64,000 nucleotides of DNA from Pseudanabaena sp. FACHB-2040 (lineage in GTDB: Bacteria; Cyanobacteriota; Cyanobacteriia; Phormidesmidales; Phormidesmidaceae). The stretch spans positions 124,001-188,000 of the forward strand of contig NZ_JACJQO010000010.1 in assembly GCF_014696715.1 (NCBI RefSeq), given 5' to 3'. Of this stretch, positions 28,316-32,946 are shown piece after piece; within the stretch, counting starts at the first letter, position 1; the number at the start of each line of letters is the position of its first letter. The notes under the pieces are model-generated. The model was not told the DNA's origin. It made no database searches and saw only the letters and a list, made by a program, of their open reading frames with translations. Both the position numbers and the translations under genes were made by a program.

Positions 28316-29038
28316 TTACGCTGGCTGCATCAAAGCTTGGCGCAGTTTTTCTCGCTGATCGGCAGAGAGGGCAGAGGCGATCTGCTCTAGATCCGATGGG
28401 TTCATAGACCGCAGCATCTGCAGAAAGTCGCCCTGAGATCGGGCCGGGGGCTGGGTGGGTGCTGCTAGGCTGTTTTTCAGACGGCAGTTTCCTCCGTCGC
28501 AAGTCAGGCCCAGTTCGTGCCAAAGCATTGTCGGCAGTACTTTACCTCGACGACCGTGCAGTTCACGGTTCAGGATAAAGGTTTCTAGGTAGGCTTTGGG
28601 AGATCCGTAGGTTTCCTCCTGGGGAGAGTAGGGGACTGTAAAGCAGCCGAAGTGCTTTCGGTACTCCTCAGAGTCAATCATGTAGGTAATCAGGGCCTGT
28701 ACACCATCGCGCATGAGGATATCGCAATAGAGCCGCATTTCCTGGCGGTCCCGAGGGGCTCGTCCCATGAAGTGCTTAAAGCAAAGCTCTAAAAACTTTA
28801 GGTTTGACGAACCATGGTAAAACTCATCAAGGTAAACTGCTGAATGGCCCAGTGCCTTTAAGAAACGCTTGACGCCAATTTTGTCGTGCAGAAAATCGTC
28901 TTCTGCTTTGACTAGCTGCTTTCGCTCAAAGGCATAGGGCTGTCGCTCTAGCACCTGGACATAGATTTGATAAAGGGCTGCTTTGCGCTCCTCTCGGGAA
29001 GAGTGCCTGCTGACAGTGACTTCTTGGGTGTAATTCAT
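28316..29038 (-). CDS. Phycobilisome linker-domain protein
   Basis: 240 residues from the ATG at 29038 (MNYTQEVTVSRH). Residues ~15-150 form one linker domain of the rod/core type (ALYQIYVQVLERQPYAFERKQL, VKRFLKALGHSAVYLDEFY, LELCFKHFMGRAPRDRQEM, ITYMIDSEEYRKHFG). It is closest by eye to the ApcE (core-membrane linker) repeats. The C-terminal ~80 residues differ from CpcG and include CDGGNC and a Ser/Pro hinge before a terminal helix (LEQIASALSADQREKLRQAL). Linkers join phycobiliprotein hexamers. It is transcribed with an allophycocyanin-like gene 177 bases upstream. Which assembly it serves is not clear. Confidence 0.85.
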   Translation of the reverse strand: MNYTQEVTVSRHSSREERKAALYQIYVQVLERQPYAFERKQLVKAEDDFLHDKIGVKRFLKALGHSAVYLDEFYHGSSNLKFLELCFKHFMGRAPRDRQEMRLYCDILMRDGVQALITYMIDSEEYRKHFGCFTVPYSPQEETYGSPKAYLETFILNRELHGRRGKVLPTMLWHELGLTCDGGNCRLKNSLAAPTQPPARSQGDFLQMLRSMNPSDLEQIASALSADQREKLRQALMQPA

Positions 29039-29215
29039 AATTAAGGTCTTCCTCAAAGCTGGACAACCACGATTGGGTGGGGCTATCTAGAGCCGTTAGA
29101 GGGGGCACGGCGTAGGGGAAACAGAGTCACGAGTCAAGCAGTATCACCTCCCAGCTCTAAAGCCAGGCAGTTTGACCCGTAACCCGTGAGATTATGAGGG
29201 GCACTTGCTGCTGAT

Positions 29216-29689
29216 TCAGGTGTAGGGCTGAAGAGAGTTGAGCACAATGCTGATGTAGGGGCGGATCAGGCTGCTGTTAGCGGGGGTTAGTGTCTCATCA
29301 ACAGCTTCTTGAAGATACTGATAAGCTTTGGAGCAGGCCACTTGTTTATGGTGGGCTCGCAGCACGGTATCTAGCCAGAACATGACCTTTTCTAAAAATA
29401 GAAATTCGTCATCTCGCAAGATAGACAGAGCAATATAGCGCAGCACTTCACTCATGTCATACTGGCAGCGTTTGGCACTTTGCTGAATAATTTCGGGATG
29501 CACCCGAGCAAATTTTCTCAAAGCACTTAGCACCATAGCATCACTGTGCTGGCTGATCTTTTGGTAGGTCTCTAGCCGCTGAGCGTAGCTGTTGACATAG
29601 TTCTCTAAAGATCGCAGTTCTTCTGGTGTTAAATAGCGGCCATCGGCGGCGACGATCTGTTGTTCTAGGCTGTGATTTAGGGCTGGCAT
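29216..29689 (-). CDS. Allophycocyanin-like phycobiliprotein, divergent
   Basis: 157 residues, the length of an allophycocyanin subunit. The globin-like helices and the bilin site are recognisable: RCQYDMSEVLRYIAL aligns with the canonical C-x-x-D-x5-LR. The chromophore-attachment Cys and the Asp that contacts the pyrrole nitrogens are kept, while the usual basic residue between them is Tyr. The N-terminus (LNHSLEQQIVAADGRYLTPEEL) also fits the family. It is more divergent than ApcA, ApcB, ApcD or ApcF, so it is likely a specialised subunit. Its partner gene downstream encodes a single linker domain. Confidence 0.85.
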   Translation of the reverse strand: MPALNHSLEQQIVAADGRYLTPEELRSLENYVNSYAQRLETYQKISQHSDAMVLSALRKFARVHPEIIQQSAKRCQYDMSEVLRYIALSILRDDEFLFLEKVMFWLDTVLRAHHKQVACSKAYQYLQEAVDETLTPANSSLIRPYISIVLNSLQPYT

Positions 29690-29973
29690 AGCGGCTCAAA
29701 GTACATCAATAACGGAAATAGGGGTTTGCTGTTAGTGAAGCCTGTCTGTTCTGTAGATTTCCCGGTGGGCTAGTACCAGCGACAGCGTGATGTGTTTCTT
29801 AATACGGAGTCTGGTGGCTGCTTTAGCAGCGGTTCTTTACAAAAATTCGACCAGTACTTTTGAACTCATGATATAGTTCACGTGTACCAACGGGGACAAA
29901 GGTGCCCATACCTGCTGCTGCCCCGTTTAGGCGCTCATTTCAACTCTGCTTAAAGCCCCGTTGAGGTAACTCT

Positions 29974-31002
29974 ATGACCCCGGCTACCAAAACCAGACGC
30001 TCTGTGCGATCGCAAGCCCCCGACCCCAGCCCTATCCCTCGCACCCTGGCCCTCGATGCCGGGAACTATGACCTTAAGTTTTTTGACGGCAACGGTCATC
30101 CTAAAGCGATTCGTTCGGTTCGTTACCAGTTGCCCCGAGGCCGAGATGCGGTCAGCTACTCTGAAGCCTCGCCGCTGATTGAGCTGCCCGATGGTCGCCG
30201 CTACCACTTTGGAGCCCAGGCATATAAATACCGCCGCCAGCAGCAAACTGTGATCGAAAACAAAGTGGAGCTGGCCCGACTCCACCTCTATGCCTGCCTA
30301 GAGCCGATTGCCGAAACCGTAGCCGAGTTTCCGCTCCAGCTCTACATCTCCACCCCCGATCCGGGCCGCAATGCAGTTGAGATCGAAGAGCAGCTTGTAG
30401 GGCCGCATGAATTTCGGCGCAATGGCCTCGACTTTCGGGTGATGGTCGAGTCGGTGCAGGTCAGACGCGAAGGCATGGGCGCTTACCACTATGCCCAGAA
30501 GCAGGGGTTAATCCCTGATACGGGCTACACTATCGTCGTTGATATTGGGGGCGGCACCTGGCTGACCCGTCTGGTAGACGCCGATGGCGAAGTCATCGAC
30601 GAAAACATCATGGACCGGGGCGGCACCTACGAACTGGCAACCGCCATCAGCTTCGACCGTCGCTTGAGCGATGCCTTAGGCACCACAGCCGACCCCTGCA
30701 TTGTGATGGACGGTTTCCGAGTGGGTCACCTCTATGCCGATACTGGACTGGGCTGGACAGGCTGGCTAGACGAGTACCTCGACCCATGGTTTAAGGGCAT
30801 TTTTCAGACAATTAAGGCCCAATTTACGCCTTTCATGCCTAGAGTCACCCGCTTTTTGGTTACTGGCGGCGGCTCTCACCTAATCTCTGATCGGCTAGTA
30901 GGCCGAAATCTATTCGCTGTCATGGGCGACCCCCAGTTTGCCAACGTGCGGGGGCTATTTCTGCTATCGAGTGATACCCAATTATGCATGACAACAAAGT
31001 AA
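29974..31002 (+). CDS. ParM/StbA-like actin-family ATPase
   Basis: 342 residues with actin-fold nucleotide motifs: LALDAGNYDLKFF (phosphate 1, ~residue 25), VVDIGGGTWLTRLVD (phosphate 2, ~190) and FLVTGGGSHLI (adenosine, ~308). A GAGGT ribosome site lies 6 bases before the ATG. ParM-type proteins polymerise to push plasmids apart; chromosomal copies in cyanobacteria have no settled role. The C-terminal end overlaps by 19 bases with a small gene in another frame, the arrangement of parM and its adaptor parR. No plasmid genes or mobile elements lie nearby. Confidence 0.85.
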   Translation: MTPATKTRRSVRSQAPDPSPIPRTLALDAGNYDLKFFDGNGHPKAIRSVRYQLPRGRDAVSYSEASPLIELPDGRRYHFGAQAYKYRRQQQTVIENKVELARLHLYACLEPIAETVAEFPLQLYISTPDPGRNAVEIEEQLVGPHEFRRNGLDFRVMVESVQVRREGMGAYHYAQKQGLIPDTGYTIVVDIGGGTWLTRLVDADGEVIDENIMDRGGTYELATAISFDRRLSDALGTTADPCIVMDGFRVGHLYADTGLGWTGWLDEYLDPWFKGIFQTIKAQFTPFMPRVTRFLVTGGGSHLISDRLVGRNLFAVMGDPQFANVRGLFLLSSDTQLCMTTK

Positions 31003-31265
31003 GGCTCAGCCGAGACGTGCTAGAAAAGGCAGAATCTATCGCTGCTGAGTGGGGGCTAAAAAATGCCCGTGCCGCTATCGAAGCCGTGTTTCGCCGCTAC
31101 TGCGACGACTATCTTTATGGGCGGCTGCCTACCGATACCGCCCCTCCCCTAGCGGCCTCACCCTCTCGTCGGATGCCCGACCCGCCCACTGCGGCTAAGG
31201 CTGATAGGGGAGATCCATCTCAGTGTGAGGCGCTAGATGCCTTAGATGAGCTGCTCTCCCTGTAG
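30984..31265 (+). CDS. Small partner of the ParM-like ATPase, ParR-like candidate
   Basis: 93 residues, starting inside the last codons of the actin-like gene (19-base overlap), so translation is coupled. The N-terminal half (VRLSRDVLEKAESIAAEWGLKNARAAIEAVFRRYCDDY) reads like a ribbon-helix-helix segment: a short strand and then two helices. It is followed by a Pro-rich linker and an acidic C-terminus (CEALDALDELLSL). In plasmid systems ParR binds centromere DNA through an RHH fold and binds ParM through its C-terminal tail. That layout fits, but no homology can be claimed by eye. Confidence 0.7.
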   Translation: MHDNKVRLSRDVLEKAESIAAEWGLKNARAAIEAVFRRYCDDYLYGRLPTDTAPPLAASPSRRMPDPPTAAKADRGDPSQCEALDALDELLSL

Positions 31266-31341: not shown

Positions 31342-32451
31342 GTGAATCCTACCGTTGCAGCCTCTCCTACCCCGACCCCTGCGCCCCGCCGTGCAGTCTT
31401 TCCGTTTACTGCCGTGATTGGCCAGGAAGAGATGAAGCTGGCGCTGTTGCTCAACGTGATCGACCCCAAAGTTGGGGGAGTCATGATCATGGGCGATCGC
31501 GGCACCGGCAAGTCCACCACCATCCGGGCCCTAGCTGACCTCCTGCCAGAGATCGATATCGTGGCCGATGACCCCTTCAACCGCGCTCCTGAAGATGCAG
31601 ATCTGCTGGCAGAACGAGGCGTTACCGAACTGCCTTTAGCCAAGAAAAAGGTGCCGATGGTCGATTTACCCCTAGGGGCTACCGAAGATCGAGTCTGCGG
31701 CACCATCGATATTGAAAAGGCTCTTTCAGAAGGGGTGAAAGCCTTTGAACCGGGGCTGCTGGCAAAGGCAAACCGAGGCATTCTCTATGTCGATGAGGTG
31801 AACCTGCTCGACGATCACCTGGTAGACGTACTGCTAGACTCGGCCGCTTCTGGCTGGAACACGGTCGAACGCGAAGGTATCTCCATTCGTCACCCGGCTC
31901 AGTTTGTGCTGGTTGGCTCTGGCAACCCAGAGGAGGGAGAGCTGCGCCCTCAGCTCCTCGACCGCTTTGGCATGCACGCCGAAATTCGTACCGTCAAAGA
32001 TCCAGAGCTGCGGGTGCAGATTGTAGAGCAGCGCTCTGAGTTTGACCGCAATCCTCAGGAATTTTTGAACACTTACCAGGCTCAGCAGACGGAACTGCAG
32101 CACCGACTGGTTAGCGCTCAAGAAAGGCTGGGCGGAGTCGCTCTTGACCATGACTATCGGGTCAAAATTTCCCAAATTTGCGCTGAGCTAGATGTAGACG
32201 GTCTGCGTGGCGATATTGTGACTAACCGAGCCGCTAAAGCATTAGCCGCCTACGAAGGTCGTACTGAGGTGACGGTAGACGACATCCGCCGGGTTATTAC
32301 CCTCTGCCTGCGACACCGACTGCGGAAAGACCCGCTAGAGTCGATTGACTCTGGCCATAAGGTCGAGAAGGTCTTTTGCCAGGTATTTGAGCTGGCCGAT
32401 CCGGATGCGGCAGCAGCGGCTAATGGCCGTCAGCCGATGGGTGTTCGCTAA
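31342..32451 (+). CDS. chlI: Magnesium chelatase ATPase subunit I
   Basis: AAA+ subunit that, with ChlD and ChlH, inserts Mg2+ into protoporphyrin IX, the first committed step of chlorophyll synthesis. 369 residues from a GTG at 31342. After a Pro/Ala-rich leader come the ATPase motifs: Walker [10 protein letters not shown] (~52-60), [16 protein letters not shown] (Walker B, ~150), a [20 protein letters not shown] sensor region and the C-terminal helical lid ending in DPLESIDSG. The length is typical for cyanobacteria. ruvC begins 6 bases after its stop, so the two share a transcript. Confidence 0.97.
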
Positions 32452-32457
32452 TACGCT

Positions 32458-32946
32458 ATGACAACTCGAATCTTAGGACTTGATCCAGGTCTGGCAATTC
32501 TAGGGTTCGGGGTGATTGAAGCCTCTGCGGGCTCCGTTGGGTCGTTGGCAGGGGCTTCTGTTTTGGATTTTGGCATTATCGAAACGCCTGCCAAGACTGA
32601 TATTGGGGAGCGGCTGTGCACGATCTACGATGATTTGCACAGCTTAATGAAGCAGGTCACCCCAGACTTGGTCGTGATTGAAAAGATGTTTTTTTACCGG
32701 ATGGGAAACACTATTTTGGTTGCACAAGCTCGCGGGGTGGTGATGCTGGTGCTAGCTCAGTACCGGGTTCCGCTGATGGAGTTTACGCCTGCCCAGGTGA
32801 AGCAGGCTTTGACGGGGTATGGCAATGCTGATAAGGCCTCGGTGCAAGAAGCGGTAGCCCGTGAACTGTGTCTTAACAAAATTCCCAGACCCGATGACGC
32901 GGCCGACGCTCTAGCCCTGGCGCTAACTGGCTGGTATAAGCGCTAG
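32458..32946 (+). CDS. ruvC: Holliday junction resolvase RuvC
   Basis: Cuts Holliday junctions with RuvA/RuvB during homologous recombination. 162 residues, RNase H-like fold. The acidic metal ligands are visible in ILGLDPGLA (first Asp), VVIEKMFF (Glu) and [13 protein letters not shown] (the two C-terminal Asp). The start ATG is 6 bases after chlI, which appears to share the promoter. The gene is complete and ordinary in length. Confidence 0.97.

Follow-up and report, generated by a model that had tools for sequence, protein, structure and literature searches.

A conserved pairing of a BBAG-lineage globin with a dedicated phycobilisome-type linker in cyanobacteria

Why would a single biliprotein-type gene and a single linker gene lie together, apart from the main phycobilisome genes of their genome? 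This question is raised by two minus-strand genes, P1 and then P2 after a gap of 177 bp, in a stretch of 64,000 nucleotides from Pseudanabaena sp. FACHB-2040 (hereafter the window, meaning the whole of the DNA that was analysed; Table 1). The original prediction described an allophycocyanin-like subunit and a lone linker domain similar to an ApcE repeat, with no apcA/B, cpc or far-red genes adjacent. The last point is borne out by a profile search of the genome's contigs. P1 and P2 are the sole PF00502 and PF00427 matches on their contig (C10), and the remaining matches of the genome, including the canonical Apc and Cpc genes, are located on other contigs. P1 scores 71 bits against Pfam PF00502 (cut-off 22.2), and P2 scores 124 bits against PF00427 (cut-off 28.7). 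None of the named NCBI subfamily models comes near its own cut-off for the pair; the ApcA, ApcB and CpcB equivalog models give P1 just 23–27 bits (cut-offs 228–279). The start of P2 was corrected to the ATG at 29038, from a TTG at 29056.

Table 1. Features of the globin–linker locus, in window coordinates.
Feature	Coordinates	Strand	Basis
P1, 157-aa phycobiliprotein-fold globin of the BBAG lineage	29216..29689	-	PF00502, AlphaFold2 model, tree, residues
P1 motif R74-C75-Q-Y77-D78; second invariant Cys119	29216..29689	-	orthologue alignment
P2, 240-aa dedicated linker	28316..29038	-	PF00427, model, closest folds, conservation
P2 parts: PF00427 domain, residues 14-138; conserved arm, ~139-190, with C180-x4-C185; C-terminal helical tail, ~202-237
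Promoter box A, TTAAGAAACACATC, upstream of P1	29789..29802	-	kept across families; one exact copy in the entire 6.3-Mb genome
Promoter box B, GGGAAATCT (consensus GGGCARTCT), located 39 bp downstream, counted from the start of box A	29755..29763	-	conserved spacing; pattern search

Both P1 and P2 are maintained genes: in comparison with the nearest relative, P1 has a dN/dS of about 0.03 (0.022/0.672) and P2 one of about 0.07 (0.051/0.686). Divergent from P1 is an actin-like ORF (ParM/StbA-type, by eye), which together with a small downstream ORF occupies 29974–31265 (+) of the window and is not conserved beside P1 in other families. A ChlI-like (Mg chelatase) gene is found at 31342–32946 (+), and also in L023 and L085–L087; it lies near P1 in close relatives only. 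It is adjoined by a RuvC-like gene, which comes after it in the window, and in L087 the ChlI-like gene is preceded by divergence from P1. These chlI–ruvC neighbours were left out of the functional evidence.

A survey of the distribution of the pair covered 390 genomes of the class and scored P1 in 90, P2 in 110 and both together in 79 (Fisher p 2.5e-44, counting genomes as independent and ignoring phylogeny). The counts are approximate, because P1 calls in family f23, at 30–40% identity, were assigned from the tree placement of representatives. Where both genes are present, P2 is directly downstream of P1 on the same strand in 71 of the 79 genomes, with a median gap of 160 bp, and the adjacent pairs are spread over many families. 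Comparison of flanking genes revealed no conserved third neighbour beyond close relatives, and no conserved lyase gene near the pair. As the flanking genes are otherwise unconserved, P1 and P2 are not being carried along by a larger syntenic block. Plasmid records returned just weak matches, to other linkers.

The two genes are not strictly dependent on each other, since P1 occurs without a detected P2 in 11 genomes, and genus g7 has retained P2 and its promoter element in the absence of P1. In g7, relatives of another globin, P1b (mostly two), are found elsewhere in the genome. In L140 and L144, P2 is located near cpc genes without the promoter element, and may there serve ordinary phycobilisome rods. 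A further variant, with two tandem P1 genes ahead of P2 (G098, L106:8058–9362), is perhaps a heteromeric version.

P1 and P2 also have a promoter element in common. A box A, resembling RTTAAGAAWCRCWKC, is found upstream of P1 and is followed 39–41 bp on by box B (GGGCARTCT). Some families have another box A, 20 bp upstream of the first, which gives an outer spacing of 59–60 bp. At a score of at least 20, the element was detected in 27 of 33 P1 upstream regions, a partly circular result given that the weight matrix was trained on such regions. Independent tests are provided by unlinked P2 upstream regions (7/10), background regions (0/601) and pattern searches of whole genomes. Across 36 genomes, the pattern search returned 16 matches, 14 of which are at P1 or P2. 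A stricter pattern had matches in 9 genomes, all of them at P1 or P2 (control 0). The exact box A, searched in 22 genomes, occurred in 12 places, of which 11 are at P1 or P2 and one falls within a different gene (control 0). Where P1 and P2 are apart (G138), both are preceded by the element, and where P2 is alone (G330), it has the element as well. The element is absent upstream of f23 P1, of P1b, of the canonical phycobilisome genes and of those P2 genes that lie close to cpc. Searches upstream found no HLR1, Fur or Pho boxes, and the one Rfam RNA match was a sub-threshold chance match. NtcA boxes, detected in 4 of 38 upstream regions against a background rate of 4.9%, were rejected as an explanation. 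Co-occurrence, adjacency and the common promoter uphold the original proposal that a biliprotein-type globin and a lone linker function as one unit, separate from the main phycobilisome genes. P1–P2 is a conserved, co-regulated globin–linker unit.

What kind of globin is P1? Its AlphaFold2 model (pLDDT 89.8) has the phycobiliprotein fold, and the best solved matches are phycobiliproteins (Z 15–19). The bilin Cys and Asp, which had been read as kept from the single sequence, are Cys75 and Asp78, and both are invariant in all 51 orthologues, as are Arg38, Pro65, Trp105, Cys119 and Tyr123. Arg74 is present in 50 of the 51, Arg84 in 48 and Asp16 in 44. The last two correspond to positions that pair alpha with beta subunits in phycobiliproteins, and their retention suggests that P1 may self-associate. 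The CXRD motif is absent. All 51 orthologues have C-x-[YF]-D, so that the bilin-contacting Arg is replaced by Tyr or Phe, and bilin binding by P1 is for this reason a genuine question. In addition, the loop ahead of the Cys lacks eight residues relative to allophycocyanin.

Phylogenetic trees took in ApcA, ApcB, ApcD, ApcF, CpcA, CpcB, the genome's own AplA-like protein, and the far-red ApcD3 and ApcD5. P1, P1b and the globins of FeS–V4R clusters form one clade (support 100), with every one of these reference proteins outside it. P1 is nested among the FeS–V4R-linked globins (support 100), and the globins of L145, which is from outside the cyanobacterial class, are basal. This clade corresponds to the lineage of bilin biosynthesis-associated globins (BBAGs) of Rockwell et al. 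2023 (PMC10151467), recognised here by cluster context (FeS, V4R-A, globin, V4R-B) and not by the sequences of that study. The description 'allophycocyanin-like' therefore holds for the fold of P1 but not for its ancestry, and P1 has no clear core-subunit orthologue among ApcA/B/D/F and the far-red variants. Neither FeS/V4R nor bilin biosynthesis genes are conserved beside P1, and in the window's genome a V4R cluster is found separately, on contig C22 (L126). P1 has left the FeS–V4R cluster.

P1b (L125:7979–8443, contig C5 of the same genome) is a second solo BBAG-lineage globin. It is 34% identical to P1, keeps CXRD, adjoins a cytochrome c-like ORF and has a patchy distribution. As an obligate partner of P1 it was ruled out, being missing in most P1 genomes outside the window's family. 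Contig C22 also encodes a possible double or fused globin, a 358-aa protein (L011:1465–2541) in which the C-terminal half is a globin distantly like PF00502 and contains SCLRD.

P2 has a single PF00427 domain, with no PF00502 and no PF01383 above cut-off. The folds closest to its model (pLDDT 83.5) are ApcH and an ApcE repeat with its arm (Z 22–23, 28–30% identity, residues 1–176). The similarity to an ApcE repeat proposed at the outset is thus one of fold and does not extend to ancestry, as the P2 linker domain forms its own clade in the linker-domain tree, apart from the ApcE repeats, CpcC and CpcG of the same genome. The CDGGNC noticed in the C-terminus proves to be a general feature, with C-x4-C present in 64 of 68 P2-type linkers. 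Along with C180-x4-C185, the arm carries R164-G165, P169 and W173, and many of these are among the most conserved alignment columns. The Cys pair flanks a predicted hairpin (pLDDT about 60–75 there), and a predicted helical tail comes next. P2-type linkers consist of one or two whole 190-residue units with a single tail, as expected for stacking; in f23, P2 often has two such units, each with its own C-x4-C. P2 is a linker family of its own, with a conserved Cys-x4-Cys arm.

Linkers of this type are associated with globins in genus g18 as well. A P2-type match was obtained in six g18 genomes, and each of them has a short linker (172 aa in L123, with no Cys arm) placed divergently beside FeS, V4R-A, two globins and V4R-B, although the six count as one observation, being non-independent members of one genus. 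Because the g18 cluster globin falls outside the P1 clade in the tree, linkers and BBAG-lineage globins are associated in two arrangements. Each of these genomes (L123, L124, L155–L158) carries two V4R pairs, and the short linker adjoins one of these pairs together with an extra 190-aa globin. L145:4119–10680, from a genome that belongs to the same phylum but not to the cyanobacterial class, holds an FeS–V4R–globin–V4R cluster and a double-globin ORF.

From the predicted folds, ancestry, conservation, synteny, co-occurrence and shared dedicated promoter, we infer, with an even chance of being right, that P1 and P2 make up one co-regulated, small, non-bulk pigment complex in which P2 organises a ring of P1. 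P1 would most likely carry one linear tetrapyrrole on Cys75 and would self-associate into a ring like a phycobilisome disk, with the PF00427 domain of P2 placed in its cavity. The Cys-x4-Cys arm and helical tail of P2 would then serve either to stack the ring or to attach it to a partner (phycobilisome or photosystem), and the dedicated promoter element would switch the complex on. As a small accessory, the complex would more probably be an energy trap or quencher, or a condition-specific sensor, than a bulk antenna. A P2-organised, bilin-bearing ring is preferred because Cys75 and Asp78 are invariant, because linkers of one or two units imply stacking, and because characterised BBAGs from other bacteria bind bilins with weak fluorescence (3–7%; PMC10151467), which also argues against bulk light harvesting. 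A wider generalisation can be offered more tentatively. PF00427 linkers may organise BBAG-lineage globins too, as a parallel phycobilisome-like principle, with P1–P2 as a pigment-bearing, non-harvesting quencher or photosensor under its own regulator, and with a linker–BBAG link that reaches the FeS–V4R lineages.

Several other explanations deserve consideration. In a light-harvesting mini-antenna, comparable to a small rod or core, P1 would hold a bilin and hand on its energy, and P2 would act as the linker. The phycobiliprotein fold of P1 and its PF00427 partner would suit such a role, as would the resemblance of one- and two-unit P2 proteins to disk-stacking linkers and the P2 genes near cpc in L140 and L144. 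We nevertheless consider it unlikely, as P1 is outside every light-harvesting clade, has lost the Arg of CXRD, adjoins no alpha/beta pair, and has weakly fluorescent BBAGs as its known relatives (PMC10151467). It is likewise improbable that P1–P2 is a photosystem II (PSII) assembly or repair factor, that is, a relocated offshoot of the slr0144–slr0152 type of module with the linker as scaffold. This is nonetheless a serious rival because related clusters are implicated in PSII assembly: the closest relatives of P1 are the BBAGs of FeS–V4R clusters, one of which is flanked by a P2-type linker in each of the six g18 genomes, and the slr0144–slr0152 operon has itself been implicated (PMC9145668). 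However, the PSII role may belong to the neighbouring slr0150–slr0152 (PMC10151467), P1–P2 is unlinked to V4R genes in the window and in most genomes, and the window's genome has a V4R cluster elsewhere.

Because the bilin site is altered, a pigment-free scaffold must also be weighed. P1 would have lost bilin binding, and Cys75 and Cys119 would act together with the P2 Cys pair in a structural or redox role. The replacement of Arg in every orthologue, the shortened loop, the invariance of Cys119 and the prevalence of C-x4-C among P2-type linkers all fit this idea, but the equally invariant bilin-attaching Cys75 and bilin-contacting Asp78 make it distinctly unlikely. Lastly, mere proximity, with P2 serving ordinary phycobilisomes and P1 acting alone, would fit the g7 genomes, where P2 is present and P1 is not, and also L140 and L144, where P2 is close to cpc genes, but is very unlikely given adjacency in 71 of 79 genomes across many families and a common element even where the genes are separated (G138).

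Returning to the preferred P2-organised ring, the sequence evidence suggests a small, previously undescribed pigment–protein complex that exists alongside the normal antenna. With a phycobilisome linker of its own, this widespread BBAG-lineage protein offers a tangible experimental system in which to ask what these globins do, and how pigment arrays came to be organised by linkers. The nearly genome-unique promoter element provides a route to the controlling signal.

The BBAGs, a group without an assigned function, are proposed to be related to the ancestor from which all phycobiliproteins descend (PMC10151467). P1 shares with the cyanobacterial BBAGs of slr0144–slr0149 type clusters its clade (support 100), its fold and the shortened loop before the Cys position. 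It differs in lying outside the FeS–V4R cluster, in having CXYD rather than CXRD, and in being paired with a linker; that paper reports no linker partner, its two uses of 'linker' being unrelated. No published account of a P1–P2 pair, or of a BBAG with a linker, was found in the open-access papers searched. P1 and P2 each belong to known superfamilies. Their combination, the Cys-arm linker family and the dedicated promoter are apparently new as far as those open-access papers go, and an earlier description may exist.

Among phycobiliproteins, ApcA/B/D/F share with P1 the fold (Z 16–17), Cys75 and Asp78, but P1 is in a different clade, with a shortened loop, a replaced Arg and no adjacent alpha/beta partner gene; trees, motif and loop together rule out an allophycocyanin identity. 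AplA of Fremyella diplosiphon resembles P1 in being a biliprotein reported outside phycobilisomes, and is reported to have a 28-residue N-terminal extension, which the 157-aa P1 is without. The genome's own AplA-like protein (contig C12, 192 aa) has an extension of this kind and falls outside the P1 clade, and an AplA identity of P1 is ruled out on both grounds. Far-red (FaRLiP) ApcD3 and ApcD5 are the top structural matches of P1 (Z 18.6–19.2), only slightly above other phycobiliproteins; they group with ApcD, far from P1, which rules out a far-red identity.

Similarly, P2 shares its PF00427 domain and following arm with ApcE repeats, ApcH, CpcC and CpcG. ApcE has an N-terminal biliprotein domain and several linker repeats, neither of which is present in P2, and the rod linker CpcC has a C-terminal PF01383 domain that P2 lacks. 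P2 does not group with the rod-core linker CpcG/CpcL in the linker-domain tree. It is set apart from all of these linkers by its separate clade, its own C-x4-C arm and its helical tail.
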